Origin: Methylomonas methanica MC09
GTDB taxonomy: Bacteria > Pseudomonadota > Gammaproteobacteria > Methylococcales > Methylomonadaceae
Direction: 5' to 3'
NCBI RefSeq assembly: GCF_000214665.1
Contig: NC_015572.1
Span: 3,968,001 to 4,032,000 of the forward strand
Length of the DNA: 64,000 nucleotides
Every line of letters starts with the position of its first letter. Positions within the stretch are counted from its first letter, which is position 1. Of the stretch, positions 6,580 to 64,000 are shown in pieces. Below the pieces are notes generated by a model. That model ran no database searches. It had not been told where the DNA came from and saw nothing but the letters and a program-made list of their open reading frames with translations. The position numbers and the translations under genes are program-made.

Positions 6580-7087
6580 AAATACCCCCCGGTAAAATTG
6601 TTCTTGTCGTGATCTCGCAACCGGCCCCCAGAATAGGTTTATTTCAGCTTTGTTTCAAGCACGACGCGGTAACATTTTGGCTGGAAACCGCCGCGATACG
6701 CTAAACGATTTGGATGACACGTAGGCTGGTAAAAACAATGCGAAACCCGGCAAACACTTTGAAGCTTAATTTCCGCAACGACTACTCAGCCTACGCGCTT
6801 AGTTTTGCATCGAAATAACACGATGGTTATCAATGCGTTTCCGTTAAAGAATTACCTGATTAGTAAGCGTCTTCGGCTAAATCCAAGAAGCCGTCACGCC
6901 AGCGGTGAGCATCCAATGCCATGGAGGCGAACTTAGCGCTACCCTTGCAACCTGAACCTCGGCATTCCCTACCGAAATAACGCGTAAAAGGGCGCGCGGC
7001 ACTGCTAAAGCATCTTACCAATCAGACTTAAAGCACGCGATTGCGCCGAATCAGTGGCATACCAACACCATTAGATTGGCGCCCTCA
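6580..7087. other. Non-coding stretch with one inverted repeat
   Basis: No convincing reading frame. The only structure seen is a 76-bp segment bounded by 9-bp inverted repeats, CGTAGGCTG (6720-6728) and CAGCCTACG (6787-6795), which has the look of a small palindromic repeat or MITE-like remnant. Confidence 0.5.
6720..6795. repeat. Small element with 9-bp terminal inverted repeats
   Basis: CGTAGGCTG and CAGCCTACG are exact inverted copies bounding about 58 bp of non-coding DNA. No flanking duplication could be recognised. It may belong to the GTAGG-type REP families seen elsewhere in this window. Confidence 0.35.
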
Positions 7088-7369
7088 TCATTCTTCCTTT
7101 TGCTCCTCGGCGGGTTTTGGCACTTCGGCGGCTTCATTATTCCCGGACTTTTGTGCCTCGGCGGCTTTTTTCGCCTTTCTTTCAGCAGCTTTTTTCGCCA
7201 GTGCTTCCCTTTGCTCTCTGGCTTGTCTCGCCGCCACCGAGCCGGTTTCGGCTTCGGCCAACACCATTGCGGTGTCTGCTTGGGTTACGACTGGCGTTAA
7301 CAGCGCCGACACTACGCAAAGACTTAGCAACACGCTAATTTTTTTTGATTTGATAGACGACATAATCAC
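7088..7369 (-). CDS. Small secreted Lys/Ala/Glu-rich protein, unknown
   Basis: 93 aa (or 91 aa from the second ATG). A Sec signal (VLLSLCVVSALLTPVVTQA) is followed by a highly charged helical tail made of AARQAREQREALAKKAAERK-like repeats and ending in EEQKEE. It is probably a periplasmic extended helix. No family was recognised. The ribosome site GGGAG upstream supports expression. Confidence 0.6.
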   Translation of the reverse strand: MIMSSIKSKKISVLLSLCVVSALLTPVVTQADTAMVLAEAETGSVAARQAREQREALAKKAAERKAKKAAEAQKSGNNEAAEVPKPAEEQKEE

Positions 7370-8028
7370 TCCCGTAGTTAAAATATTATTCTAAAAAAGT
7401 TCAACTTGGTAAGACCCGAGAATCAATAGGATCGACCTCGATTGAACCCTATCTACCCTAACCCCATCCGCGGCAATTTACCAATTTTTTTGCCTGAAAC
7501 CCTAAATTTCGCCGAATACAATACCCGCCGTTTATCCGGCCATTCCAAGCGTTATCGACATTGAAAGGCCGATTTTACGTCGGGGCAGCGCAGCTTTAGC
7601 GTTTGCACATCTGTCGACACTAACGCAATCAGCTCAGTTACCTTGGCTTTTAGAGACCGCGTTTAGGATTGTTAGCTAACCGACTGAGTCACAAATATTA
7701 ATAACACTTATCCCCAAAAGCTGTGGAAAACTCTGTGGAAAAGCGCCGAGCAACGACACTAACTGCTTAATTTTTCGAGGATTTGGTTAAAATGAACCAG
7801 TATTAGGCAATCGACAACACCCAATAAAAATCAATAACTTAAGTGGTTGTAGCATTTTAAACAAACCAAATATTTCAATATTGCTACAAAACTAAAAGCC
7901 AAACCGCAACGTGTGAATAACCGCTTTTGTCAATCTTGAAACTTTTCCGGCTTGTGCTACCACCGGTATCGACAATACAAACGAATCGGCGGCAGGAATT
8001 GCCAAAACCGCAGGCGATGGCATAAGCC
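7370..8028. other. 659-bp AT-rich non-coding region
   Basis: No gene could be supported. It contains three DnaA-box-like 9-mers within 35 bp (7708-7742) and an 8-bp inverted repeat, TTGTAGCA (7847-7854) and TGCTACAA (7882-7889), with a 27-nt AT-rich spacer. Confidence 0.5.
7708..7742. other. Cluster of three DnaA-box-like 9-mers
   Basis: TTATCCCCA (7708-7716, plus) and two copies of TGTGGAAAA (7722-7730 and 7734-7742, i.e. TTTTCCACA on the minus strand). Each is one mismatch from the canonical TTATCCACA. The surrounding DNA is AT-rich. No dnaA, dnaN, gidA or parAB is nearby, so an origin role is unsupported. A DnaA-titration site or chance are both possible. Confidence 0.25.
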
Positions 8029-8742
8029 TCACTGTGGCGGCGAAACGTTTTCGCGCATGTCGTCGAGCACCCGGGCGGCCATTCTGGCAACGTAGAACAT
8101 AACCGCAATTGTGAGTAACAGCCCAATCGCCAATAACGGCAAGGGAATTTCCGCTGAAACGGCCTGCCCCGCCGCCAAGCCGGCAATATGTTTGGCGGCG
8201 TAACCCAGATAAACCAGTGTGCCGTTGTAAATAAAAATGCCGCTGGTGGCCGCGAAGTACGGCCAAAACCGCACCGATGCCGCCGCAAAAGCGTAACTGA
8301 GCAAAGCAAAAGGCAGAGGCGTCAACCGTAGCAGCAACATTAATTTAAACGAGACCTGCCTGCTCACAAGGGCATTGAGTTTGGCGAATTTCGGCTGCCG
8401 CGCCAGCCAGCTCCTTAGCTTCCGCTTAAACAGGCTTCGCCCGAGTATGAATATCACGGTTGCCGCGCTATAAGTGGCGACAATCATGTAGAGCTCCGCA
8501 GACAGCAACGGAAACAGCAAGCCGGCGGCGAAACAGAGCGCATCCACCGAAAGCCAAAAAGGCGTCAACAGCGCAAATACCCCGATAAACCCCAAGGGCG
8601 CCCAGACGCCCAGCGCCTGGATATCTTGCTCCAGTTCTCCCAGATGCAATTCCAACTCCCGACTCAGCACGATAAGCGCACCAATAGCCAAAAGGACCGA
8701 AACCACTCTACGCATTAAAATACCATCCTTCGACTTCATCAT
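8029..8742 (-). CDS. TVP38/TMEM64 (DedA-like, SNARE-associated) membrane protein
   Basis: 237 aa with about six hydrophobic segments, in the order typical of the VTT/DedA superfamily. The characteristic central region reads LLFPLLSAELYMIVATYSAA, then the charged FILGRSLFKRKLRSWL loop and LLRLTPLPFALLSYAFAA with the conserved Arg and Pro. These proteins are implicated in lipid scrambling and membrane homeostasis; the substrate of this member is unknown. A GG-N10-GC match about 45 bp upstream (8787-8800) is a weak sigma-54 candidate. Confidence 0.85.
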   Translation of the reverse strand: MMKSKDGILMRRVVSVLLAIGALIVLSRELELHLGELEQDIQALGVWAPLGFIGVFALLTPFWLSVDALCFAAGLLFPLLSAELYMIVATYSAATVIFILGRSLFKRKLRSWLARQPKFAKLNALVSRQVSFKLMLLLRLTPLPFALLSYAFAAASVRFWPYFAATSGIFIYNGTLVYLGYAAKHIAGLAAGQAVSAEIPLPLLAIGLLLTIAVMFYVARMAARVLDDMRENVSPPQ

Positions 8743-8884
8743 ATAACTGCCCGTTTAGTGTTCATTTGACCGCCGGTTCGGCAGGAGCAACAGCACAACC
8801 CTGTTACAAAGCCTAAACGCAACTCGATTGCATGTATTTTTATGGTAACTTCGCTCTAAACAACAATCCATCTAAAACAGCGAT

Positions 8885-9394
8885 ATGCGCAGATACCAAA
8901 AAAACATAGTTTCCCAATATTTTCTTGCCGGCGTCTTGACGCTTGCCGCGTTCGCGCTGCATTCGGAAGAACCCCGGGCCGATCAAGTGTCTACGACAAC
9001 CAAGCCGGAAAGGTCGTGCACGGATTATGTGCCGGCTTATTCGCATATCTATTTGTCGAAGGATCAAACCACATCGCTGGGAATCACGCTGAGCATTCGC
9101 AACGTGGATAGCACTAAAAAAATCAGCGTTTCCCGGGTCGAATATTACGATACCCACGGCGTGCTGACCGATGTGTTGGCGGATAAATCGTTTACCTTGG
9201 GCCCGATGGCCACGGTTTCCTACGTCATAGACCAACAGGACATGCGCGGCGGCGTAGGCGCCAATTTTATCGTGCGTTGGTCGGGAGACAAACAGATTCA
9301 CCCGCCCATCACCGAAGCCGTGATGGTGGGCAGTTCCGGCACCAAAGGCTACAGTTTTTCGTCGCGGGGGGAGAATATCGCTTGTGACGATTGA
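8885..9394 (+). CDS. DUF3124 family secreted protein
   Basis: 169 aa with an N-terminal signal (FLAGVLTLAAFALHS). The body matches the DUF3124 pattern: YVPAYSHIYLSKDQTTSLG, LSIRNVDS, VEYYDTHGVL, LGPMATVSYVIDQQD, GGVGANFIVRW and TEAVMVGSSGTKGYSF. The fold is likely an all-beta periplasmic domain. Function is unknown in the family. It stands alone, divergent from the TVP38 gene. Confidence 0.8.
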   Translation: MRRYQKNIVSQYFLAGVLTLAAFALHSEEPRADQVSTTTKPERSCTDYVPAYSHIYLSKDQTTSLGITLSIRNVDSTKKISVSRVEYYDTHGVLTDVLADKSFTLGPMATVSYVIDQQDMRGGVGANFIVRWSGDKQIHPPITEAVMVGSSGTKGYSFSSRGENIACDD

Positions 9395-46932: not shown

Positions 46933-47649
46933 ATGACCCTTAACATCTTAGATAACCTTAAAATCAGGTATCGCCGCATCCGGATTGCCTCAAGTTTACA
47001 CAGGAACGATACTCTTGGCGCCTTACATCGTGCATGGGCTTATGTGTATGCAACCGTGCTTCCGGGAGACTATTACGAATTCGGCGTCTACAAAGGCACT
47101 TCGCTTATTAATAGCTGGCTTTCTCAGCAATACTTTCACCAGCGTTTAGAGCGCTCTGAGCAGCTGCCGTTTAAGCGGACAGGAACAGTGGCGCGTTTTC
47201 TGGCCCAGGCACCCACATTCTACGGGTTCGATACCTTTAACGGCATGCCCGACAACAGTGAGGGCGAAGACGCACTGGCACCGGGATCCTTTCGAAGCGC
47301 CATCGCTGACGTTACCCGGCGATGCGCGGTGGCAGGACTTCACTCGCCTGAAGTCCGTCTTGTTCCCGGTTTATTTTCAGAAACCAAGAATCAAATCGGC
47401 CCCAATCAGGCCGCTATTGTCCACATCGACTGCGATCTATACGGGTCTACGGTTGATGCTCTTGATGCTATTGCCCCTCGTCTGACTCAAGGAACAGTCC
47501 TTTTATTCGACGATTACAACCTATTCCGTGCCAACAAAAATCAAGGTGAACGGCGCGCTTTGACAGAGTTTACTCAGAAAACCGGATTATCAATCGAACC
47601 CTGGTTTGCCTATGGCCCTGCCGCACAGGCGTTTTTGTGCCATCGATAA
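46933..47649 (+). CDS. TylF/MycF-type macrocin-O-methyltransferase-like protein
   Basis: 238 aa. SAM-binding region YYEFGVYKGTSL (about 36-47), FYGFDTFNGMPD (about 95-106), and the metal-ligand segment AIVHIDCDLYGSTVDAL with the later LFDDY. These are the TylF family signatures. Members O-methylate sugars or are found in polysaccharide and glycopeptide loci. Here it sits at the edge of an EPS/RiPP region, so a sugar of the EPS is a plausible substrate. Confidence 0.85.
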   Translation: MTLNILDNLKIRYRRIRIASSLHRNDTLGALHRAWAYVYATVLPGDYYEFGVYKGTSLINSWLSQQYFHQRLERSEQLPFKRTGTVARFLAQAPTFYGFDTFNGMPDNSEGEDALAPGSFRSAIADVTRRCAVAGLHSPEVRLVPGLFSETKNQIGPNQAAIVHIDCDLYGSTVDALDAIAPRLTQGTVLLFDDYNLFRANKNQGERRALTEFTQKTGLSIEPWFAYGPAAQAFLCHR

Positions 47650-47870
47650 AGCCAGCAACACTCAATATTGATAGTATGCCGCTTTCAAGATCGCTAAGTT
47701 TTTCAATAACAGGTTTACCAATGTCCGTCCTTACAATTGGAACCATCAAAAAGCAAACACTAATAATGCCCCCTATTCAATGCACGCAATTGAGCCGCGT
47801 AACGACGACGTTCGAAGGATTAATTTTTTATCTAATTACATGCTGAAGCACTTAGCCAGAAACAGCCTCA

Positions 47871-49157
47871 TTGGCCTTTAACTACATGCCTTTACACGAC
47901 AGCGATACCACCCGAGTACTTATTCTGGATATCTTGCGCCTTTCTCCAACGCTACCGGATTCTTCGCAACTACTTCGCATGAAAGAGCCGGACTGGGATT
48001 ACCTGATTAGGGTGGCTGGAATGCACCGGCTTGGTCCGGTGCTTCACGACTGTATTCTTCGTAAAAACTTATTACCGCTTACCCCTCCCCGGGTGGTAAA
48101 GGTTTTACAAAAAACAACACGCAAACATTCCCTTCGTAACCTGGCCCTCTATCAGGAACTGATTGCCGTTACTCGGTTGCTTGCCGCCTCGAAAATACCG
48201 TCGCTTGCACTAAAAGGGGCATTCCTTGCCAACTTCACCTACCAAGCAATAGGCCTCCGGCCAATGCGAGATATTGATCTGTTAGTTCCCAAAACGCATG
48301 TCGTCAAAGCGTTCGAACTGCTAAAAGAAAATGGATATCAAACTGGTTACGACGGCCTACCGGAAGCCCATCTTGAAGGTAAAAAAATCCATCTCCCACC
48401 GTTAGCCCGGCCCAATGGTATACCCATAGAACTCCATCACCGCCTGACCTTTCCCCATCCCAATGGCGTTACGGACGAATACGAATCGGCTATCTGGACG
48501 CGCAGCATTTCAAAACGAATGGGCAATACGTCCATCAAATTTCCCTGTGTGGAAGATCTGCTGCTTCACCTTTGCTATCACGCAACGGAGGGGCACCAAT
48601 TTTCCATCGGTCCCCTGGCGTTAATGGATGTGGCATTACTGATCCAGGACAATCAAATCGATTGGGACGAGATTGTGCGGATGGCGTCCAACGGTTGGCG
48701 ACACTATCTACTCGCCCCGCTTTATCTGGCAAAATTGCACATTGGCGCCGACATACCCGAATGGGTGATGGAGGCATTGGACGTAGGACGCGATAAAACC
48801 CAATGGCTGGAAAGCGCCGAATATCTGCTGTTTTCGGAACTTGGCGACCACATGCTATTGAATTCCAGCATGCAGAAAATTTTGTGTTCTGAAAATCTGC
48901 ACGAGCGCATCTGGTCTGTTACCGAAATTCTCTTCCCGACACGCGCCACGATTGCAACGCACTTCCCGGTCCGTCCCGACGCGTTCCGGGCCTTTCTATA
49001 CTACCCGAGTCACTGGCGGCGCTTAATGAAAAAAAAGTTACCGCTCTTAATATCCAGGCTGCTACAACAACCCGCTGAAATCGAAAAACTGGCTGCTCAC
49101 AAACAGGCGTTCAGCAGTTGGTTGGAAACCGATACCGGCCGAACACCCGATCAATAA
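47871..49157 (+). CDS. Nucleotidyltransferase-family protein (NTP_transf_5 type), RiPP/EPS-associated
   Basis: 428 aa. A short helical N-terminus, then the nucleotidyltransferase core: LALKGAFLANFTYQAIGLRP with MRDIDLLVP (the GxR...DxD pattern, about 120-145). The helical half ending the protein contains CVEDLLLHLCYHATEGHQF. Proteins of this family recur in lasso peptide loci next to HPr-kinase-like enzymes and in EPS loci. A role in nucleotidylating the peptide or a sugar is possible. Its 3' end overlaps the convergent glycosyltransferase gene by 7 bp. The start could also be the ATG two codons later (47886). Confidence 0.75.
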   Translation: MAFNYMPLHDSDTTRVLILDILRLSPTLPDSSQLLRMKEPDWDYLIRVAGMHRLGPVLHDCILRKNLLPLTPPRVVKVLQKTTRKHSLRNLALYQELIAVTRLLAASKIPSLALKGAFLANFTYQAIGLRPMRDIDLLVPKTHVVKAFELLKENGYQTGYDGLPEAHLEGKKIHLPPLARPNGIPIELHHRLTFPHPNGVTDEYESAIWTRSISKRMGNTSIKFPCVEDLLLHLCYHATEGHQFSIGPLALMDVALLIQDNQIDWDEIVRMASNGWRHYLLAPLYLAKLHIGADIPEWVMEALDVGRDKTQWLESAEYLLFSELGDHMLLNSSMQKILCSENLHERIWSVTEILFPTRATIATHFPVRPDAFRAFLYYPSHWRRLMKKKLPLLISRLLQQPAEIEKLAAHKQAFSSWLETDTGRTPDQ

Positions 49158-53939: not shown

Positions 53940-54161
53940 TCAGCCAATAAAACCAACCTGCTCAGAAACAAAGCATCCTAACTTGGTAAAACGGCCGAAA
54001 CCCGCACCGCCGGTTATGCGAAAAGGAACAAACAGAATCAGTAACCGAGCCATCCGCGGCAATAGCCAAGCCGGCAATAACCAGGCTTTCTCAAACCGGC
54101 CGAGCCGCCCAAAGCTTTGCAGCCTGCGGATGATTAAGAGCAATAACATAGGTTGAGTCAC
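53940..54161 (-). pseudogene. Lasso-peptide B2 leader peptidase homologue with its catalytic core deleted in frame
   Basis: The open frame of 73 aa joins two pieces of a B2 protein. N-terminal: RRLQSFGRLGRFEKAWLLPA, WLL, RMARLLILFVPFR (B2 proteins begin with this helix and end it in PFRxxAxxLG). C-terminal: ITGGAGFGRFTKLGCFVS, the usual last strand pair of B2 (VTGGxxFGxFTxxGCF). The join is near 54017-54020. Complete B2 proteins are about 145-150 aa, and the missing about 75 residues contain the transglutaminase-like catalytic Cys and the HAWV His. As it stands it cannot be a peptidase. It might still fold as a small membrane-associated remnant. Confidence 0.75.
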
Positions 54162-54805: not shown

Positions 54806-55771
54806 ATGCAAGGCGACCTCACTCTATGCGGCTGGCGCGTCCGCTCCGAACTCGCCTTACCGGAGCTGCTTCCATGGCACGACAACTTAAAACCGGTGGA
54901 CATCGAAATTTCCTTCGGCGCCGTCCCCAGCCCCACCCTGCCGCCGCTATTCGAGTTGCCGCACAGTAAACTGTGGGCCAACCGTTGCTTCCTGCTCCAA
55001 TTAGAAAACGTCGGGAAATTCTGGGTGGAAAACGGCAGGCGTATTATTCTGGAACCCGCCCAAAATGCCGACGAATCGGAGCTGCGTACTTTCCTGCTCG
55101 GTTCGGTACTCGGTGTTTTATGTCACCAGCGCGGATTGCTACCCGTACACGCGTCGACTACCCGCATCAACGGTCGTTCCATCCTGATCGCAGGCGACTC
55201 GGGCAGCGGAAAGTCCACGTTAGCAGCGGCCCTGGGGGCTCGCGGCCAGGCATTGGTAGCGGATGACATTTCGGCTTTCGACGCACAAACCGCAATGCTG
55301 CTGCCGGCTTTCCCCCTGCATAAACTCTCGAGCGATGTGCTTGATAGACTGTCATTACCAAACCAAGGCCTAGTAGCAAACCGTCCGGGCCAACCCAAAT
55401 TCAATGTGCCGGCAGCGAACGGCTTCACGCCGACACCGTTACCGCCATCGGTAATCTACGTCCTGCATTCCGACAGGCGCGTTAAAGGCGTTACCATTGA
55501 GCGCGCTTCGCCTGCAATGGCCATGACCCTGCTTGACCGCATGATTTATCGCCGCGCGGTCGGCTTAAAAATCCAGTCCCGGCAATCACTGTTCCTGGCC
55601 TTATCCACACTGGCAGGACTTGCTCCTGTCTACCGGTTGCGGCGGGAATCCGGTTTATCGCTGGATCATCTGGATGCGCTTGCGGAACGCGTCGAAGCGC
55701 ACGCTTACGCAATACACGAACAAAAAACCGCCGAAAAAATCCACCTTCACTCTGAAACCATCACGGAATGA
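54806..55771 (+). CDS. HPr-kinase-like P-loop protein (lasso tailoring kinase type)
   Basis: 321 aa. An N-terminal beta-rich substrate domain (about 1-105) is followed by the kinase core: LLPVHASTTRINGRSILIAG, P-loop GDSGSGKST (about 131-139), ALVADDISAF with the HprK-type Asp pair, and PLHKLSSDVLDRL. It is much longer than HPr kinase and lacks the LarA-type context. The same family in paeninodin-type lasso clusters phosphorylates the peptide's C-terminal Ser; the candidate precursor here ends in Ser. Its stop overlaps the sulfotransferase start (ATGA). Confidence 0.87.
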   Translation: MQGDLTLCGWRVRSELALPELLPWHDNLKPVDIEISFGAVPSPTLPPLFELPHSKLWANRCFLLQLENVGKFWVENGRRIILEPAQNADESELRTFLLGSVLGVLCHQRGLLPVHASTTRINGRSILIAGDSGSGKSTLAAALGARGQALVADDISAFDAQTAMLLPAFPLHKLSSDVLDRLSLPNQGLVANRPGQPKFNVPAANGFTPTPLPPSVIYVLHSDRRVKGVTIERASPAMAMTLLDRMIYRRAVGLKIQSRQSLFLALSTLAGLAPVYRLRRESGLSLDHLDALAERVEAHAYAIHEQKTAEKIHLHSETITE

Positions 55772-56601
55772 CGGGTTATTTCTGGCTGGCCTCTTACCCC
55801 AAGTCCGGCAATACGTGGCTGAGACTTTTTCTTGAAAGCCTGAACACGGACGGCGCGATGCCCGACATCAACGCCATGACTTTCAGCTCCGGCCATGCGG
55901 CGATGCGGGACGAATTCGAGCGGATACTCGACATCGAATCCAACGACCTGACCGACGCGGAAATTGCCTGTGCACGGCCGCGCTTTTACGAACTGAAATC
56001 CCAAACCGCAAGTTCGGCAATGATATGCAAGGTACATGACGCCTGGGGAATGACACCTGCCGGCGAACCGTTGTTTCCGCCCGAGCTGACGCTGGGCGTA
56101 ATCTATTTGATCCGCGATCCGCGCGACGTGGCGGTCTCGTTGGCCCATCACATGCGACAGAGTGTGGATCAAACCATAGAACGAATGGGCAACACCGACG
56201 CCATGATGTCCATGTCCAAACGGTTTATTCCCAAGCAACTGCCGCAACGGCTGAATTCATGGAACGGCCACATCGAAAGTTGGCTTAGCGCGCCGGTAAA
56301 ACGCCTGTTGCTAAAATACGAGGACATGCTTTCCGACCCTGTGCGACACTTCGGCGCGACGGCCCGTTTCCTTGGCATTCACACCGACGATGCCAAAATT
56401 GTTGCCGCTGTGGAAGCCGTTACTTTTGAACGCTTGCGGGCGGCTGAAAAGGCCGATGGATTTATCGAAGCGCCGCCCGGGGTGGACGATTTCTTTCGCC
56501 GAGGCATGGCCGGCGGCTGGCGCGACAGCCTTACCTCGGCGCAAATCGCGCGCATAGAATCAGACCACGGCGCCATGATGCGCAGATTCGACTATCTGTG
56601 A
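55768..56601 (+). CDS. PAPS-dependent sulfotransferase
   Basis: 277 aa. 5'-phosphosulfate loop WLASYPKSGNTWLRLFLES (about 4-22), catalytic-type His/Lys region MICKVHDAW, 3'-phosphate motif VIYLIRDPRDVAVSLAHH (about 110-127), and C-terminal FRRGMAGGWRD, the cofactor-binding segment of cytosolic sulfotransferases. Overlapped by 4 bp with the kinase gene, so PqqD-kinase-sulfotransferase are one unit. The acceptor may be the RiPP or the EPS. Confidence 0.93.
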   Translation: MTGYFWLASYPKSGNTWLRLFLESLNTDGAMPDINAMTFSSGHAAMRDEFERILDIESNDLTDAEIACARPRFYELKSQTASSAMICKVHDAWGMTPAGEPLFPPELTLGVIYLIRDPRDVAVSLAHHMRQSVDQTIERMGNTDAMMSMSKRFIPKQLPQRLNSWNGHIESWLSAPVKRLLLKYEDMLSDPVRHFGATARFLGIHTDDAKIVAAVEAVTFERLRAAEKADGFIEAPPGVDDFFRRGMAGGWRDSLTSAQIARIESDHGAMMRRFDYL

Positions 56602-56762: not shown

Positions 56763-57302
56763 ATGGACTCATATCTAGGAGAAGTTAAGCTCTGGGCGCT
56801 CAACTTCGCACCCAAGGGCTGGCATTTATGCGACGGCACCCTAATGCCGGTCGCGCAAAATCAGGCGCTTTTCTCACTGCTCAACAACTACTACGGCGGT
56901 GACGGCAGAACCAACTTCGCGCTACCCGACTTGCGCGGGCGCGTGCCGGTTGCTACCGGGCACAATAGCCAAACCGGCGCCAATCCGCAGCTTGGCGACA
57001 AGGGCGGCACGGAAACCACAACGCTGACTCAACAACAAACACCGCCGCATAATCATGCGGTAAATGTCCGCGGCGATAACGGCAATCAAGCCGGCGGCTT
57101 GAACCGCCACATCGCCGCGGCGGTCGCCTCGACACCGCCCGGCGGCGCGATACCGCTGTATGCATCGGACGGCGCATCAGTGGCACTAGCCCCCGAGACG
57201 GTCAGCATTGAGGGCGGCGGCGAAGCGCACAATAACATGCAGCCCTATCTGGCTCTGAACTATTACATCTGCACAAATGGCGTTTACCCGCCGCGTCCCT
57301 AA
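56763..57302 (+). CDS. Tail-collar domain protein 1 (MdpB-like)
   Basis: 179 aa. Collar domain at 1-60 (YLGEVKLWALNFAPKGWHLC, DGTLMPV, GDGRTNFALPDLRGRVPV), a His-containing central motif (PPHNHAVNVRG) and a conserved tail (MQPYLALNYYICTNGVYP). Homologues are called microcystin-dependent protein or tail fiber protein. A GGGAGG ribosome site precedes the ATG. First of three tandem paralogues. No capsid, tape-measure, baseplate or lysis gene is near. Confidence 0.9.
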   Translation: MDSYLGEVKLWALNFAPKGWHLCDGTLMPVAQNQALFSLLNNYYGGDGRTNFALPDLRGRVPVATGHNSQTGANPQLGDKGGTETTTLTQQQTPPHNHAVNVRGDNGNQAGGLNRHIAAAVASTPPGGAIPLYASDGASVALAPETVSIEGGGEAHNNMQPYLALNYYICTNGVYPPRP

Positions 57303-57324: not shown

Positions 57325-57864
57325 ATGGCTGATTTTTACATTGCTGAAATCAGGCCCTTCGCGGGCATGACGAATCGAGTTCCCGCCGGCTGGCATCTAT
57401 GCGACGGAACCCTGCTGCCGATTTCCGGTTACGAAACCCTGTATTCGCTAATCGGCATCGCTTTCGGCGGCGACGGCATAACCAACTTTGCCCTGCCGGA
57501 CTTAAGGGGCAGATTGCCTCTCGGATCGGGCCGGGGCGCCGAACTGGTTGGCAACTATGCCTACGCATCTCACGGCGGTACCGAAACGGTGACGCTGACA
57601 TCCGTCCAGACGCCGGCCCACACACACGCCTTTCAGGTAAGCACCGCGGCGGCAACCAGCAACGCACCCGCTAATAACCGGTTTGCCGATCCGGCCCCGA
57701 ACAGTTTTTATGCCACTACGAAAACACAGGGCTCCCAAGACCAAGTACTCGGCGCCGACACCGTCTCGACCGCCGGCGCGGGGCAAGCCCACCCGAACTG
57801 CATGCCTACGTTGGCGATCAACTACATGATTGCCCTAGTGGGCATTTACCCTCAAAGACCCTAG
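57325..57864 (+). CDS. Tail-collar domain protein 2 (MdpB-like)
   Basis: 179 aa from the ATG at 57325, preceded by CTGGAGG; an earlier in-frame start inside the previous gene has no ribosome site. Same plan as its neighbours: FYIAEIRPFAG, GWHLCDGTLLPISGYETLYS, GDGITNFALPDLRGRLPLGS, PAHTHAFQVS, and MPTLAINYMIALVGIYPQRP. Only 22 bp separate it from gene 1. Confidence 0.9.
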   Translation: MADFYIAEIRPFAGMTNRVPAGWHLCDGTLLPISGYETLYSLIGIAFGGDGITNFALPDLRGRLPLGSGRGAELVGNYAYASHGGTETVTLTSVQTPAHTHAFQVSTAAATSNAPANNRFADPAPNSFYATTKTQGSQDQVLGADTVSTAGAGQAHPNCMPTLAINYMIALVGIYPQRP

Positions 57865-57876
57865 GAGGAAACCGAT

Positions 57877-58440
57877 ATGTCAGATCCTTATATTGGCGAG
57901 ATTCGCCCTTTCGCGTTCGGTTATTACCCCGGGGACGACAACTGGCTGCCGTGCGATGGCGCTACCGTAAGCATCCAGCAGTATCAGGCGTTGTTCGCGG
58001 TGATCGGCACGCTTTACGGCGGCAATGGCAGCAGTACCTTCCGCTTACCCAATTTGCCGGGTCTGGCCATGCTGGGAACAGGCCAAGGACCGGGGTTGCA
58101 AAACCACACCCTTGGGCAACAAAGCGGCCAGACCTACGTAACACTCAATGAAAATCAGATGCCGCCGCACAATCACACCGTTACCGGCATCAACGCAAAA
58201 ACTGCCGACACATATTCGGCACCTAACAACGTTTCTCGTCTCAGCCGGTATTTTTCATCCGGGACGGTAAATTTCGCTTACACCGATCAAGCGCTGACCG
58301 CAGGCGCATCGCTGTCCGAGGATACGTTCACCCCGTATACCGGCGGCGGCACCGACGCCCAGCCGCATGACAACCGGCAACCCTGGCTGGCGTTTACTTA
58401 CGCCATTGCCTGCAACGGCATTTTTCCGGTACCCGAATAA
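57877..58440 (+). CDS. Tail-collar domain protein 3 (MdpB-like)
   Basis: 187 aa, ribosome site AGGAGG. YIGEIRPFAFGYYPGDDNWL, PCDGATVSIQQYQALFAVIG, GGNGSSTFRLPNLPGLAMLG, MPPHNHTVTG and RQPWLAFTYAIACNGIFPVP. Last gene of the trio; an intrinsic terminator follows. It converges on the precursor-like gene of the opposite strand. Confidence 0.9.
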   Translation: MSDPYIGEIRPFAFGYYPGDDNWLPCDGATVSIQQYQALFAVIGTLYGGNGSSTFRLPNLPGLAMLGTGQGPGLQNHTLGQQSGQTYVTLNENQMPPHNHTVTGINAKTADTYSAPNNVSRLSRYFSSGTVNFAYTDQALTAGASLSEDTFTPYTGGGTDAQPHDNRQPWLAFTYAIACNGIFPVPE

Positions 58441-58453
58441 GCCTGCTAATGTC

Positions 58454-58488
58454 CCGGGGCCGGCCAAGGAAGGAAACGCCCCGGTTTT
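58454..58488 (+). terminator. Intrinsic terminator of the tail-collar operon
   Basis: CCGGGGC (58454-58460) pairs with GCCCCGG (58478-58484) around a 17-nt loop, followed by TTTT, 13 bp after the third collar gene's stop. It also lies just past the end of the convergent precursor-like gene. Confidence 0.65.
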
Positions 58489-58509
58489 ATCGCCATTCCG
58501 CAACCCTAT

Positions 58510-58677
58510 TTACGACAAGGTGGATGACCCTAAGCCATCGCTACCGGGGGTTCCTCCGTTCTCGGTCAAGCCCGCAATCGACTCGGAAGTAAGTTGCGGC
58601 GCAAACCAGGCTTTCTTTTCCGGCTGGCCGGTTTCGCCGCCATGCGGTTCCGGGTTACGGTCGTTGTCTATGCTCAT
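58510..58677 (-). CDS. Candidate lasso-like RiPP precursor peptide, 55 aa
   Basis: I translated this frame from the raw sequence: ATG at 58675-58677 with AGGAG 6 bp upstream, TAA at 58510-58512. Residues 1-20 are polar (MSIDNDRNPEPHGGETGQPE). Residues 21-29, KKAWFAPQL, contain W24-x-x-P27-x-L29, matching the YxxPxL leader motif that B1/PqqD proteins bind in lasso precursors, with Trp for Tyr. Then comes SESIAGLTENGG (31-42), and a tail rich in Gly, Thr, Pro, Ser and one Asp (D47) ending STLS. T38 could be the leader Thr at -2. Cores starting at N40 or G41 would put D47 at ring position 8 or 7. The last residue is Ser, as in kinase-tailored lasso peptides. It is 65 bp downstream of the cyclase-like gene on the same strand. 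Confidence 0.75.
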   Translation of the reverse strand: MSIDNDRNPEPHGGETGQPEKKAWFAPQLTSESIAGLTENGGTPGSDGLGSSTLS

Positions 58678-58742
58678 GACGCACTCCTATTCGAATTGAT
58701 GGGCACAATCTAGCATGAATGCTCAGCTAAACAAACATCGGC

Positions 58743-60668
58743 TTATAGGTTTCCGGCGTCGGCCCAGCGCAGGAAATATCCGACATGCAACGCGCGCGGC
58801 AGCATCTGGGTAATTTCGGTCACGTCGCGCCAATCGCGGACAATGGCCGCCAAGCGCGCCAAATCCAGCATATAATCCGCGGCGGGTATCTGTTTAAGAC
58901 TGTCTATTTCAGCCGCCAGTTTAGGACGCAGCGCAGCCATCCGCAGCATGATTTCCGGGTTCTGACTACCGATAAGACGATTTTCCAACACGCTGGCAGG
59001 TAAGCGCCCCGCCATGGCCCGGCGCGGCAGGCGGCGAAATTCGCCGTTGCAAAGGAACTGCGCGTCCGGTAACGACAGACAGAACTCCAATAAACGCACG
59101 TCCAGCAGCGGCGTACGGGTTTCGATGCCGGAAAGCGCGCGCAGCGCGGTGAATATGTCGCGTCCGTGTTCCAATCCGCGCAACAAGTGTAAACGCGCCG
59201 CCAGCGCGTCATCAGGCCCGATCAGAGCGGGATGATGCCCGGCCTGGCGGCAGCGCTCCGCCAAACCGATATCGCGGGCAAAATCCGGGCGGATAGCGCT
59301 AAAGCCCGACCACAATTCGCTTCCGCCGTTTCCGAGCGATCGGCGCCATTTTGTCAGCGCAACCGGTTCGAGCGGTCTCAGCACTTCTCTGCGTAATATC
59401 GCCAGCCAATCGAAGCCGTAAGGCCGGGTTCGGCCGCCCAAGCGAAGCTCGCGAGCCAAGCGCAGCCAACGTCCGCTACGGAACAGCGTATTAAGCGTGC
59501 GCAAGCCGTCGTAGCTCCAGGCCGGATTACCGCCTTCGCCGGTCAGCATAACGCGGATACCCTCTGCCTTAATCTGATCGTAGCCCGGTAACAGCCAGCC
59601 GATATTGGTAATGTTTCGGGCGGGAAGCCCCCCCGCCGCAAAAAATAATGTCGGGTCGGTTTCTACCCAGTGAGGCTGATCCGAACTGGCCAGCATGGTG
59701 TCCATATTAGGGTACATGGCTTTTATGGCGGCAACATAGGGGCGTTCGTCGTTATACCAGCTGGTACGCGGTTCCGGCAGGACCAATCCCTCGGGCGGCA
59801 CGGATGTGACGGTGACTAATTTACAGGGTGCCAACAGCTCGGCCGCCGTCGCGGCTACGGACGAGGAGTCCAGCCCTCCGCTCATTGTCGAGGCAACGCC
59901 ATCCTTAGCCCGCAAGCGACGGGCCACCGCCTGCCGCAGATGCTCGTACGCCGCCTCCGCGTAATCCGCGTCTGATGGCAAGCGCAGCCGAGCTTTGGGC
60001 TCGGGCGTCCAATAGCGTTCAAATCTCAGGCTGTCGGCGGTGAAATGCGCGGCGGTCGCCGCCGGTACCCGGCGCACGTCCCGATAAAACGTCTCCACCG
60101 GATGTCTGATGTTAAGAATCAGAAAATCGGCCATGCCGAGTTCGTCCAGCTGTCTCGGCACACCGGGCAACGCCAGCAATGCCCTATAGCTGGTGGCAAA
60201 CGCAACGAAACCTCGCCCCTGGTGGTAATACAACGTGCGCCGGCCCAGTTGGTCGCGCGCCAATATCAACGTGCGCTTCGGCGCGTCCCACAACGCCAGC
60301 GCGAAATCGCCAATCAGGCGGGGCAATGCCGCCGCACCCCATTTCTCCAGTGCAGTAAATAACAACTGTCCGTCCGCCACCGCTTCGCCGCTCAACGATA
60401 TACCCAGAGCCGAAGCGATTTCATCGCGGTTGTCGAGGCGGCCGTCATAAACAAAAGCCGACCTGCTATCCCCGCTCGTCCAGGGCTGACGCTCGAAACA
60501 GTCTTCATGGGTAATATGACGTTGACAGACCAACAGAGCTACACCCTTCTCGATCCAACGAACCGCACCCTCTACATCCGGCTCGGCCATGCGGCCGGCC
60601 GCGGCATCCAAGTCCGCCGACTGAAGCGGCGCACCGGAAAACCGCACAATACCGGCAATAACGCTCAT
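58743..60668 (-). CDS. Asparagine-synthetase-like lasso cyclase (C protein)
   Basis: 641 aa. N-terminal glutaminase-fold domain (about 1-200) and C-terminal ATP-pyrophosphatase domain with the AMP loop TMSGGLDSSSVA near residue 263 and later GEGGNPAWSYDG. True glutamine-dependent enzymes need Cys at position 2; here the start is MSVIAGIV, so Ser replaces it and ammonia cannot come from glutamine. That loss is typical of lasso cyclases, which use ATP to join the core N-terminus to an Asp/Glu side chain. Its start overlaps the methyltransferase stop by 4 bp. The candidate precursor follows downstream. Confidence 0.83.
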   Translation of the reverse strand: MSVIAGIVRFSGAPLQSADLDAAAGRMAEPDVEGAVRWIEKGVALLVCQRHITHEDCFERQPWTSGDSRSAFVYDGRLDNRDEIASALGISLSGEAVADGQLLFTALEKWGAAALPRLIGDFALALWDAPKRTLILARDQLGRRTLYYHQGRGFVAFATSYRALLALPGVPRQLDELGMADFLILNIRHPVETFYRDVRRVPAATAAHFTADSLRFERYWTPEPKARLRLPSDADYAEAAYEHLRQAVARRLRAKDGVASTMSGGLDSSSVAATAAELLAPCKLVTVTSVPPEGLVLPEPRTSWYNDERPYVAAIKAMYPNMDTMLASSDQPHWVETDPTLFFAAGGLPARNITNIGWLLPGYDQIKAEGIRVMLTGEGGNPAWSYDGLRTLNTLFRSGRWLRLARELRLGGRTRPYGFDWLAILRREVLRPLEPVALTKWRRSLGNGGSELWSGFSAIRPDFARDIGLAERCRQAGHHPALIGPDDALAARLHLLRGLEHGRDIFTALRALSGIETRTPLLDVRLLEFCLSLPDAQFLCNGEFRRLPRRAMAGRLPASVLENRLIGSQNPEIMLRMAALRPKLAAEIDSLKQIPAADYMLDLARLAAIVRDWRDVTEITQMLPRALHVGYFLRWADAGNL

Positions 60669-61558
60669 AATCGTGCCTTTTTGCGAAACACGGCGTCGTT
60701 ATACAATCCGTTCTCCAGCTTACAATTATCGCGGCCGAATAACGGTGTATCGGCACGCTGTAGCGCTTGGTCAATCCGATAAACAACGTCGAAGACTTTG
60801 GCTGTGGCGGCGTCGGAAAAACGGAAATTACTACCCAAAATCACCAACAAACCGCCTGGCTTCAGACAGTGGCACAGCCCATTCACGATGTGTTCAAAGT
60901 CTGTAAAACGAATCAAATGGTCGCAGCGTTCGGCCCGGTTTGCGGTAAGATCGCCGTGGCGCAACACCGACAGACACAACACCGCGTCGTAGCTATCGGC
61001 CACTTGGTCCCATGGCGTCGCGGCGCGCGCAAAACGGATACGTCCGTCGCCGCTACGGCGCAGTTTCTTCCGGCAAACATCGATACTGCGCGGGTTAATA
61101 TCGATTCCGACTATTTCCGCTTGCGGGAAATAATCGCGCAGGCTGAAGACTTCTTCCCCCGTCGAACAGCCATAGGACAGAATTCGCCTTGCGGTGCCGT
61201 CTGAAAGTTGCTCGCGAATAAAGGCAAAGACCCGCGAATGTCGGTCGAACACCGTGCATCCGTAGGGTTGAAACAAATGCTCGGGGCGCGCACGCGCAAG
61301 CCGCCATTCGCTACGGTACGCCGGATCGCCAAGAATACGGCAGAGGCGAGCCAGCCGCGCGACTCCTGGAACCTTACGGAGCGCGGTTTTCAAGGATCTT
61401 AGGGCAATAATCAAATGCGGCACTGGGCGTAGGGTCCCATGGAAATGGGTAAAATGGTAACATAGCCATTCGTTAGCCCGACCGTCGATATTGTCGGCAT
61501 TCCGTTCGAACCGCGCTTGTTCAGCCGAGAGAAACCCGCCCCGACTCAAAACACGCAT
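60665..61558 (-). CDS. SAM-dependent methyltransferase (CheR-like/class I), start uncertain
   Basis: Up to 297 aa. The core begins ILSYGCSTGEEVFSLRDYFP (motif I, GCSTGEE as in CheR-type enzymes), then AEIVGIDINPRSI (motif II), FDEVAD-like YDAVLCLSVLRHG (motif IV), and LKPGGLLVILGS (motif V-VI). The first about 50 codons look unlike a protein and overlap the divergent GNAT start by 2 bp, so the real start may be a GTG/TTG near 61430-61420 within RPVPHLIIALRSLKTAL. It is coupled to the cyclase gene, so the peptide is a possible substrate. Confidence 0.8.
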   Translation of the reverse strand: MRVLSRGGFLSAEQARFERNADNIDGRANEWLCYHFTHFHGTLRPVPHLIIALRSLKTALRKVPGVARLARLCRILGDPAYRSEWRLARARPEHLFQPYGCTVFDRHSRVFAFIREQLSDGTARRILSYGCSTGEEVFSLRDYFPQAEIVGIDINPRSIDVCRKKLRRSGDGRIRFARAATPWDQVADSYDAVLCLSVLRHGDLTANRAERCDHLIRFTDFEHIVNGLCHCLKPGGLLVILGSNFRFSDAATAKVFDVVYRIDQALQRADTPLFGRDNCKLENGLYNDAVFRKKARL

Positions 61559-62054
61559 GCATCCGCCCGATCCGCAATTGTATATACGCCCGGAAACCGC
61601 AAATGACAGCGATTTTCTGCTTCGCCTCCATCGTTCGACACGGGAGGATTTATTGCTGACCGGTTTGCCGGATCAAATGCTGGAACCATTACTCGCCATG
61701 CAATGCCATGCCCAACAGAGCGGTTACCGCCAACGCTTTCCGGATGCCGCGTTCTCTGTCATTGAGAAACACGGTACAGCTATCGGGCAGCTGATAGTAC
61801 ATAGAGGCGGCGCGGGCATTCGGCTGGTGTATCTGGCCTTGTTACCCCAGCATAGAAGACGCGGATACGGGCGTAGCGTGCTGCGGGCATTGCAAGAAGA
61901 AGCAGCCGTTAAGTGTATACCCGCAAGACTTTCGGTTTCGCTACAAAACATCGCGGCGCAACGGCTTTACGCCTTGTTGGGATGGTCCGTGATCGGTAAC
62001 GATGGCGCCAGCCTGGAGATGATCTGGCTTAAACCGGACGTAACAGATTGGTAG
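61557..62054 (+). CDS. GNAT family N-acetyltransferase
   Basis: 165 aa from the ATG at 61557. GNAT core: LYIRPETANDSDFLLRLHRS, VHRGGAGIRLVYLALLPQHR, and the acetyl-CoA loop RRRGYGRSVLRALQEEA. Then LSVSLQNIAAQRLYALLGWS. GNATs of this kind commonly sit beside tail-collar genes in proteobacteria, in my recollection. The start overlaps the annotated methyltransferase start on the other strand. The 3' end runs into a displaced Rhs fragment on the minus strand. Confidence 0.88.
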   Translation: MHPPDPQLYIRPETANDSDFLLRLHRSTREDLLLTGLPDQMLEPLLAMQCHAQQSGYRQRFPDAAFSVIEKHGTAIGQLIVHRGGAGIRLVYLALLPQHRRRGYGRSVLRALQEEAAVKCIPARLSVSLQNIAAQRLYALLGWSVIGNDGASLEMIWLKPDVTDW

Positions 62055-62209
62055 TCGGCCAGGGTTTGGCCGTTGGCGATGTGTTTGACGCCTTTGAGCC
62101 GGTTGGCGTTGTCCAGGCCGTAGCCGATGGTGCCGCCGTTGAATGCGTCGGTCCGTTCCAGGCGGCTGGCGGCGTCGTAGTGGTATTGCATCTGGAAGCC
62201 GTGGAGGGC
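62048..62209 (-). pseudogene. Displaced Rhs/YD-repeat fragment
   Basis: About 54 codons of YD-repeat sequence: ALHGFQMQYHYDAASRLERT, then IGYGLDNANRLKGVKHIANG and QTLADYQ. After that the frame simply runs through the antisense of the GNAT gene. It begins 20 bp after the immunity gene and is a leftover of an older Rhs core, as is usual where toxin tips have been exchanged. Confidence 0.8.
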
Positions 62210-63264: not shown

Positions 63265-64000
63265 TCAGGCATTGGTAATCGCCTGATGCTCAGCTTTGGG
63301 TAGTGCAACAGAAAGCATTTCTCTAGCCTTAACGCCTAAAACATCTGCAAAACGCTTCTCAATCAGATGATGCGCTTCGAGCTCCATTCCTTTAATGGCG
63401 GGGCGCAGCTTACTATAGGCTTGAATACCGAACTGAGTTATTCGAGCTGCCGCGAGGGCGCAAGCTGGTGTTGCCGGGCCACATAATCCCAACGGATCCA
63501 CCGCCATAATCGGATTCCCCCCGAGATAGGCATACAGGTTAAGCCCTCCCTCAAACCCGATCGGGTCCTCGCTGATGAACCTACCGGTATCCGCATCATA
63601 GTACCTGGCCAGCATGTAGTACAAGTTGTTGCCTTCGGCTTGGATGCCCACTTGCCCGGCGTATTGGAACGGCTGCGGGATGGCTTCGGTTTTGGCCATC
63701 AGTTTGCCGTAGGGGTCGTAGGCGTAAGTGTTTACGGTGTGCTGGCTTTGATCGGTTATCGCCACGGTATGGCCGGTGCCGTCGAAGTGGTAGACGTAAA
63801 GCTGGCCGGTTTGAGCGTCGACCATCGCGGTCAGGCCTTGGCCGTAGATGTAGTACCGGGTGATGGTGTTGTTTTGGTCGGCTTCGGCCAGCAGGTTGCC
63901 GGCGGCGTCGTAGATGTATTTTGTTGTTTGGCCGTTTCTTGTCGCCTTGATGCGATTGCCGACGCCGTCGTAGACATACGTGCTGTTGCCTTGGCTGATC
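63265..64000 (-). CDS. Rhs-family polymorphic toxin, C-terminal part with nonsense-truncated tip (5' end outside the window)
   Basis: The frame enters from the right edge with YD repeats (YVYDGVGNRIKATRNGQTTK, YIYDAAGNLLAEADQNNT), followed by the Rhs core end RYYDADTGRFISEDPIGFEG, then GLNLYAYLGGNP and DPLG. The variable tip starts after DPLG and contains ELEAHHLIEKRFADVLGVKA and LPKAEHQAITNA, a His-rich nuclease-like motif of a type seen in many Rhs tips (fold not proven). A TGA then ends the frame before the conserved WR..I.YG segment. The toxin is probably inactive. Confidence 0.87.
   Translation of the reverse strand, partial: ISQGNSTYVYDGVGNRIKATRNGQTTKYIYDAAGNLLAEADQNNTITRYYIYGQGLTAMVDAQTGQLYVYHFDGTGHTVAITDQSQHTVNTYAYDPYGKLMAKTEAIPQPFQYAGQVGIQAEGNNLYYMLARYYDADTGRFISEDPIGFEGGLNLYAYLGGNPIMAVDPLGLCGPATPACALAAARITQFGIQAYSKLRPAIKGMELEAHHLIEKRFADVLGVKAREMLSVALPKAEHQAITNA

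Follow-up and report, generated by a model that had tools for sequence, protein, structure and literature searches.

Gene content around the 55-codon frame

In the window (the whole 64-kb stretch of DNA that was analysed, G000:C1:3968001–4032000 of a single-contig genome of 5.05 Mb), a 55-codon open reading frame lies between an AsnB-type cyclase gene and three tandem genes for tail-collar proteins, near genes for a PqqD-like protein, an HPrK-like kinase and a sulfotransferase (Table 1). The minus strand carries, in order, the methyltransferase, the cyclase and the precursor, and the plus strand PqqD, the kinase, the sulfotransferase and the three collar genes. The PF14907 nucleotidyltransferase gene forms a pair with a TylF methyltransferase gene (46933–49157, plus strand), 5–8 kb upstream of PqqD and, by eye, in exopolysaccharide-related surroundings; a comparable TylF/nucleotidyltransferase pair was seen by eye near other lasso genes of M. 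fluvii (L018, 4247–6215). The cluster is also adjoined by Rhs/YD-repeat-like fragments, named by eye, at 61967–62191 and 63265–63825 (both minus strand).

Table 1. Position of the features in the window, with functions as predicted.
Feature	Position	Strand	Remarks
PF14907 nucleotidyltransferase	47871..49157	+	Possible extra tailoring gene; cluster membership uncertain
Local B2 remnant	53940..54161	-	N- and C-terminal parts share one frame; catalytic middle gone
PqqD-like leader-binding protein (B1), 103 aa	54483..54794	+	Pfam PqqD, 69.6 bits, over cut-off
HPrK-like peptide kinase (K), 321 aa	54806..55771	+	H115, G130-G135-K136-S137, D153-D154
PAPS-type sulfotransferase	55768..56601	+	Pfam Sulfotransfer_1, 90.8 bits; start overlaps kinase stop
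Tail-collar protein 1 (PF07484)	56763..57302	+	
Tail-collar protein 2 (PF07484)	57325..57864	+	
Tail-collar protein 3 (PF07484)	57877..58440	+	Convergent with precursor
Precursor peptide gene (A), 55 aa	58510..58677	-	ATG at 58677, TAA 58512-58510
Precursor leader, residues 1-39	58677-58561	-	
Predicted core, N40-S55	58560-58513	-	NGGTPGSDGLGSSTLS
AGGAG ribosome site	58684..58688	-	6 bases 5' of precursor ATG
AsnB-type macrolactam cyclase (C), 641 aa	58743..60668	-	SGGLDS; Ser for Cys at position 2
SAM methyltransferase	60665..61558	-	Overlaps cyclase start
GNAT acetyltransferase	61557..62054	+	

The geometry of the small frame is that given in the initial annotation (55 codons, AGGAG, TAA, the strand of the cyclase, a gap of 65 bp to the end of the cyclase-like gene), and its peptide reads as claimed there, with K21-K22-A-W24-F-A-P27-Q-L29, T38, N40, D47 and a C-terminal S55. 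The three collar genes, the kinase-paired sulfotransferase, the broken local B2 and the distant B2 described below fall outside the coordinates of that annotation and go unnamed in it. No NCBIfam or Pfam model matches the 55-aa peptide, and scans of 58300–58800 gave no promoter (0.4 in shuffles) and one terminator (0.6 in shuffles). A peptide search of three cyclase-bearing genomes found a relative of 52 aa in M. fluvii (G023; E 3.6e-6), whose gene lies downstream of the cyclase gene and faces three convergent collar genes, and weak matches in the other two (best E 0.16). In strain WSC-6 two contigs break inside collar gene 2 and inside the cyclase gene, so that the precursor slot would fall between them, and the matches elsewhere in that genome are weak. 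A third copy occupies the corresponding slot in the MAG 'Proteobacteria bacterium SKS3.bin86' (locus L026), whose cyclase is 67% identical to that of the window. From the Trp of the leader motif to the stop, the window, M. fluvii and MAG sequences (TENGGTPGSDGLGSSTLS, TENMGNPGNDGSGTSTLS and TEGMLNPGNDGAGTSTLS, respectively) align over 32 residues without a gap, with frame, length and core kept. Counted across these 32 codons (W24 to stop), the differences at codon positions 1, 2 and 3 number 8, 9 and 20 between the window and L026, and 9, 10 and 23 between the window and the M. fluvii locus L027; over the final 18 codons of the latter pair they number 2, 4 and 16. This concentration of substitutions at third positions points to purifying selection on the precursor protein. 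The initial annotation had named a lack of frame or motif conservation in related strains as one observation that would speak against the gene; we looked for it, and found frame and core conserved in two relatives. A frame this short, overlapped by a 110-codon frame on the opposite strand, might arise by chance, yet with two relatives that keep frame and core and with the third-position bias we regard a chance reading frame as scarcely conceivable. On this comparative evidence the 55-aa ORF is a genuine gene.

Within the genus (37 genomes) the kinase (E<=1e-15) and the B2 leader peptidase occur in the same four genomes, a coincidence with a probability of 1.5e-5 if the genomes are taken as independent, and the cyclase (E<=1e-40) occurs in three of these four and nowhere else. 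A wider collection of 84 loci, which counts two places twice (L017/L027 and L021/L028) and includes several stretches of the window's own genome, holds PqqD in 71, the kinase in 71 and B2 in 52. In L026 a single stretch carries B2, GNAT, methyltransferase, cyclase, precursor, three collar genes, sulfotransferase, kinase and PqqD. The genome of the window has a second cluster (C1:4064–4076 kb), which comprises two kinases, two sulfotransferases and a separate WxxP precursor; this second precursor (L019, 11919–12104, minus strand, near 4076 kb of G000:C1) has 61 aa, ends in KWVSPTLVDIDVRSKTAHSIGPIYTDGSFAPKAS and lies directly upstream of the second cyclase. Other precursors were noticed in passing. 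One in M. fluvii (L114, 7254–7475, plus strand) carries two tandem copies of its leader motif KAWTTPEIR; its cluster also has a kinase, a sulfotransferase, PqqD and B2, and a cyclase-like match in two frames. In a Sphingomonadaceae-family genome (L117, 5740–6633, minus strand) three tandem paralogous WxxP precursors adjoin collar genes, and tails such as TDGNIGASTSLS resemble the SDGLGSSTLS of the window. Our literature search found no paper that treats a lasso peptide together with Methylomonas.

Predicted ring, tailoring enzymes and leader peptidase

The segment W24-F-A-P27-Q-L29 satisfies the lasso leader motif [Y/W]xxPx[L/V/I/F/A]; the two relatives have WQAPRL and WSAPKM, the latter ending in Met and thus falling outside the quoted motif. 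The proposal that WxxPxL is the B1-binding motif is supported. WxxP is stated, of Bacillota, to be nearly invariant in paeninodin-like lasso leaders (PMC13381572, available part). Window, L026 and L027 share Thr at position -2 (T38 in the window), an acid at core position 8 (D47 in the window) and a C-terminal Ser (S55 in the window), and core position 1 is Asn in the window and in L027 and Gly in L026. The assignments of T38 to position -2, of D47 as ring acid and of the terminal Ser as candidate kinase target are all upheld. The core had been placed at N40 or G41: N40 is supported by its alignment with the Gly of L026 and the Asn of L027, whereas G41 is not, as both relatives have Met at that place, and the seven-residue ring that would start from it was rejected for the same Met. 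Thr at -2, Gly or Asn at position 1 and Asp8 together favour cleavage after E39 and an eight-residue N40–D47 ring, which is the predicted structure.

The same positional rule was looked for in ORFs at most 1.5 kb from cluster genes and scarcely overlapping them in 82 loci, the acid being left unused for selection. Ser-terminated ORFs made up 35% (59/170) of those with WxxP and 8–13% for seven other first letters (for instance YxxP 15/112 and RxxP 79/887). An acid stands at W+22 to W+24 in 41 of the 59 Ser-ending WxxP tails (mean 17.6 and maximum 30 in 2000 shuffles), and Thr at W+14 in 29, the 59 rows including about 11 apparent chance ORFs, judged by eye, as well as double rows for one ORF in L065 and L114. 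Among the 18 tails that have no acid at these positions, about 8 look like chance ORFs by eye, while those of L039, L042, L043, L052, L068, L075 and L100 resemble real precursors with a different spacing; the first four come from collar-linked loci. Across the wider family, rings with more or fewer than 8 residues are common. The rule (WxxP, Thr or Ala about 13–14 residues on, an acid at core position 8 or 9, a C-terminal Ser) yields dozens of candidate precursors.

Among the enzymes, the cyclase matches Asn_synthase and GATase_7 in Pfam, and the best of its 9 NCBIfam matches is NF033535 lass_lactam_cya ('lasso peptide isopeptide bond-forming cyclase'; 319.6 bits, cut-off 525). A glutamine-using asparagine synthetase requires Cys2; in the 84 aligned rows, window included, position 2 is never Cys (Ser 59, Thr 13, other 10, gap 2). 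For B1 the best NCBIfam match is the lasso PqqD model (NF033536 lasso_PqqD_Bac; 68.4 bits, cut-off 80). The methyltransferase gene occurs in 5 of the 84 loci (the window, L026, L029 and a WSC-6 contig counted twice as L021/L028), and relatives of the GNAT protein occur in 14 of 15 collar-bearing loci and in none of the others. In M. fluvii two genes stand between cyclase and precursor, a Polbeta nucleotidyltransferase and a weak HEPN-type match (L017, 12548–13356, plus strand). Look-alike proteins of 254–261 aa, for which a Pfam scan gave no match, are encoded upstream of the cyclase in L017 (9688–10470, plus) and L026 (7708–8469, plus); no counterpart was noticed adjoining the window cyclase.

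The kinase carries the His, the P-loop GxxGxGKS and the DD of HPrK-type tailoring kinases, residues of which the His, the P-loop Lys and the Asp-Asp pair are reported as necessary in lasso kinases (available parts of PMC9266682 and PMC10368454). Sulfotransferase relatives occur in 24 of the 84 loci, and in 22 of these 24 the kinase lies directly 5' on the same strand. The two others are L020, the sole sulfotransferase locus that has no kinase, and L100, where both profiles match one 648-codon frame (6977–8920, minus strand), apparently a natural kinase–sulfotransferase fusion, in a cluster that holds several WxxP precursors. This fixed pairing, together with the apparent fusion, suggests that kinase and sulfotransferase may act on one substrate, the target of the sulfotransferase being possibly a Ser or Thr of the tail or the phosphate itself. 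A sulfotransferase gene and a nucleotidyltransferase gene have been noted in Firmicutes lasso clusters (review PMC8498205, available part), and no characterised lasso sulfotransferase was found in the literature as far as it was accessible.

The local B2 gene is an in-frame remnant: its 73 codons match residues 20–61 of the WSC-6 B2 (62%, E 3e-15) and then residues 153–178 (54%, E 3e-8), and the middle part with both catalytic residues is missing. The catalytic Cys and His are kept in 49/49 B2 relatives above 90 bits, the copy of the window's own genome included (a count that sets aside 5 weaker hits out of 54). WSC-6 (L112) has an intact B2 at the equivalent place, where it diverges from PqqD and where kinase, sulfotransferase and collar genes come next, so that B2 once belonged here and was broken in the window, which contains no intact B2 in its 64 kb. 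In the whole genome a single PF13471 match passes the cut-off; it is at G000:C1:4093901, 67 kb from the precursor, and has both Cys and His. Its identity to the WSC-6 protein is 52%, compared with 80% for the cyclase (first 262 residues, where the contig is cut) and 76% for the kinase, so that it is a different copy and may belong to the second cyclase cluster of the genome. In M. fluvii the B2 gene about 3 kb beyond the kinase contains an internal stop, and both species with a broken local B2 retain another, stop-free B2. That the local B2 is a remnant devoid of its catalytic middle, and that the sole clear B2 lies 67 kb away, is new here. The distant enzyme may cut the window precursor in trans, and the locus offers a test case for the sharing of a leader peptidase among several lasso clusters of one genome.

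Taken together, the gene, its neighbours and the positional rule bear out the proposed lasso-type precursor, and the ORF very probably codes for the precursor of a lasso-type peptide that is paeninodin-like and tailored by the HPrK-like kinase. Points that weigh against this reading are the scores of cyclase and PqqD below their NCBIfam cut-offs, a peptide matched by no model, a window devoid of an intact B2, the low identity of the distant B2, the internal stop in the M. fluvii B2, the plug-free tail and the 18 WxxP tails that depart from the acid rule. We infer the following chemistry. W24-x-x-P27-x-L29 would dock on the PqqD-like B1, which would present the precursor to the kinase for phosphorylation, most likely at the C-terminal Ser55; the kinase-coupled sulfotransferase would place a sulfo group on either the tail or the phosphate; cleavage after T38-E39 would be by a B2 peptidase; and the AsnB-type cyclase would activate the D47 side chain with ATP and join it to the N40 alpha-amine. 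The predicted product is an eight-residue ring, NGGTPGSD, with an eight-residue tail, GLGSSTLS, and any threading is putative, as a stable thread is not assured with a tail that has no bulky plug residue. Export would be by an ABC transporter encoded outside the window, for which a candidate at C1:4046296 is 74% identical to an exporter near the M. fluvii cluster.

Two readings would change the product or its present formation. The short flexible tail that has no plug and the loss of the local B2 are what one would expect if the product were branched-cyclic, or merely a phosphorylated linear peptide, and not a threaded lasso; for the linear form there is a precedent in the linear polyphosphorylated peptides (LPP) of Bacillota, a family with HPrK, a discrete RRE and an NTP transferase among its core genes (PMC13381572, available part). 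We consider such a product improbable, since in the window and in L026 a Cys2-less cyclase is the neighbour of the precursor (in M. fluvii a two-gene insert separates them) and the ring acid keeps its position in window, L026 and L027. The B2 remnant, the internal stop in the B2 near the M. fluvii cluster and the 52% identity of the remaining copy could also mean that the cluster is decaying, the precursor being made but left unmatured since the local B2 lost its catalytic middle. This would concern the present activity of the gene, not its nature, and is compatible with a lasso-type precursor; it is rather unlikely, given that the frames of precursor, cyclase, PqqD, kinase and sulfotransferase are all open, that cyclase and kinase motifs are present, that the precursor is under purifying selection and that a stop-free B2 persists in each of the two species whose local copy is broken.

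Tail-collar genes beside lasso-type clusters

All three collar proteins match PHROG tail fibre families, and a 30-sequence collar profile matches chains of T4 gp12 and of the cyanophage A-1(L) tail fibre. The predicted collar model has a mean pLDDT of 70.6 and is weak past about residue 60, so nothing beyond the tail-fibre assignment is supported by it. Among the 78 loci recruited with the cyclase (up to 10 kb on each side, some stretches being short) 13 contain collar genes: three in ten loci, six in L051, two in L063 and one partial in L042. These 13 comprise M. fluvii (L027), the MAG locus L026, ten alphaproteobacterial titles (Pseudolabrys twice, Asticcacaulis, Niveispirillum, Ancylobacter, Novispirillum, Sphingomonas twice, Novosphingobium and Sphingomonadales) and one Bacteroidota genome, Acidiluteibacter ferrifornacis (L063). 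In the genus, tandem collars are confined to the three cyclase genomes, and 19 others have one or two collar matches, never in tandem. Placed on the 84-row cyclase tree, the collar label requires 8 changes (17.5 with shuffled labels), of which at least 7 fall on starred branches; the label is therefore clustered, yet has been repeatedly gained or lost.

The link was also approached from the collar side, by PF07484 and kinase profile searches of 119 genomes of the family of Sphingomonas asaccharolytica (G061, locus L069), with tandem loci and kinase counts taken by eye. PF07484 occurs in 24 of the 119, and ten have tandem collars as separate ORFs; among the matches listed, at least five of these ten, G061 included, have a long kinase match within 10 kb. 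As G061 was chosen for having the link, the figure to retain is the one without it: at least four of nine tandem loci among the matches listed, where 0.10 would be expected (P 1.7e-6 under random placement, a value that overstates the evidence because the genomes are related). Six linked loci were read, four tandem and two single-collar. Five of them hold cyclase, PqqD and sulfotransferase, with B2 in four of the five, and all five have a Ser-ending precursor-like ORF, of the WxxP type in L115, L116 and L117 (three copies) and of the YxxP type in L118 and L119; the sixth, L120, lies at a contig start and has PqqD, kinase and B2 and no cyclase. The precursor occupies the same slot in L118, in L119 and in the window, between the cyclase and the convergent collar genes. 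From these gene neighbourhoods, lasso-type clusters recurrently adjoin tandem tail-collar genes, a link that is new and in no paper that we found; new, too, is the combination of features in the window cluster. The literature search gave no text linking a lasso peptide with a tail collar or PF07484, and in the available parts of texts naming both a lasso peptide and a tail fiber no link between them was found. A table in PMC10040529 gives for Sphingomonadales relatives a lasso B2, a nucleotidyltransferase, sulfotransferases, PqqD and an AsnB-type protein under neighbouring cluster numbers, with 'tail fiber protein' distant in the list and no link drawn in the part available.

Lasso-type peptide and tail-collar proteins might form one system across Proteobacteria and in one Bacteroidota genome, a view that we hold tentatively, at somewhat less than an even chance; a phosphorylated, possibly sulfated ring peptide would then be bound, displayed or delivered by, or aimed against, a multi-component assembly resembling the tip of a phage short tail fibre. 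The three collar genes may instead be passengers unrelated to the peptide, such as a tail-fibre cassette with a preference for the same genomic islands, which we place just short of even. Passengers would account for the five of ten Sphingomonadaceae tandem loci and the seven of nine single-collar genomes that have no long kinase match within 10 kb among the matches listed (G107 being on separate contigs), for the absence of lasso genes from all four of the unlinked tandem loci that were read (of five), and for the 65 of 78 cyclase loci that show no collar gene in the stretch examined, some stretches being short. They account less readily for a linkage above chance under random placement and independent genomes, for its recurrence in Methylomonas, alphaproteobacteria and a Bacteroidota genome with at least 7 of the 8 tree changes on starred branches, and for the shared slot of the precursor.

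With this work a methanotroph genus would gain a kinase- and sulfotransferase-linked lasso-type cluster. More important than the new cluster is the recurrent and quantified link of such clusters to tandem tail-collar genes. To our knowledge few lasso peptides have an established natural role, and a conserved protein partner would offer a testable handle on that role.

Comparison with known systems

The tips of T4 gp12 short tail fibres bind cell-surface lipopolysaccharide. The window collars share with them the matches to PF07484, to PHROG tail fibre families and to gp12 chains; they differ from phage tail fibres in being stand-alone tandem proteins of 179–187 aa, with no other phage gene noticed alongside.

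The initial annotation had taken Trp in place of Tyr and an Asn start as signs of a divergent or new class, which is not borne out: WxxP is the usual form in the paeninodin-like leaders cited above, and metanodin, a gammaproteobacterial lasso peptide, has Asn at position 1 by mass spectrometry (PMC12670498, available part). With both features precedented, the window peptide does not represent a new class. Metanodin shares with it Asn as first ring residue and Thr at -2 and differs in a ring of apparently nine residues (nine linearised ring forms), and the available part of PMC12670498 does not mention a kinase. Bradymonas BsfA/BsfK, in which B1 aids both the kinase and B2, likewise pairs a lasso-type precursor tailored by a kinase with a ring acid at Asp8, but has a Tyr leader motif, Ile at -2 and the phosphate on Ser3 (PMC10368454, available part).

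The closest likeness is to the paeninodin-like set (PadeA/PadeK, ThcoA/ThcoK, SyanA/SyanK and pseudomycoidin), with which the window cluster shares the WxxP leader, the B1, B2 and cyclase complement, an HPrK-type kinase with the H/K/DD motif and a C-terminal Ser. It differs from this set in its gammaproteobacterial host genus, in a 16-residue core that has no plug residue, in its three tail-collar genes, in its broken local B2 and in that NF033524, the model of the paeninodin family, gives no match to the peptide of the window at E values of up to 1; among eight relatives L051 alone matches this model (22.3 bits, cut-off 27). Atypical lasso clusters have been reported inside capsule loci (PMC13381572, available part). 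As far as gene content and motifs allow, the window cluster would work like a paeninodin-type phospho-lasso system that lies outside the NF033524 model, its lasso topology being putative.
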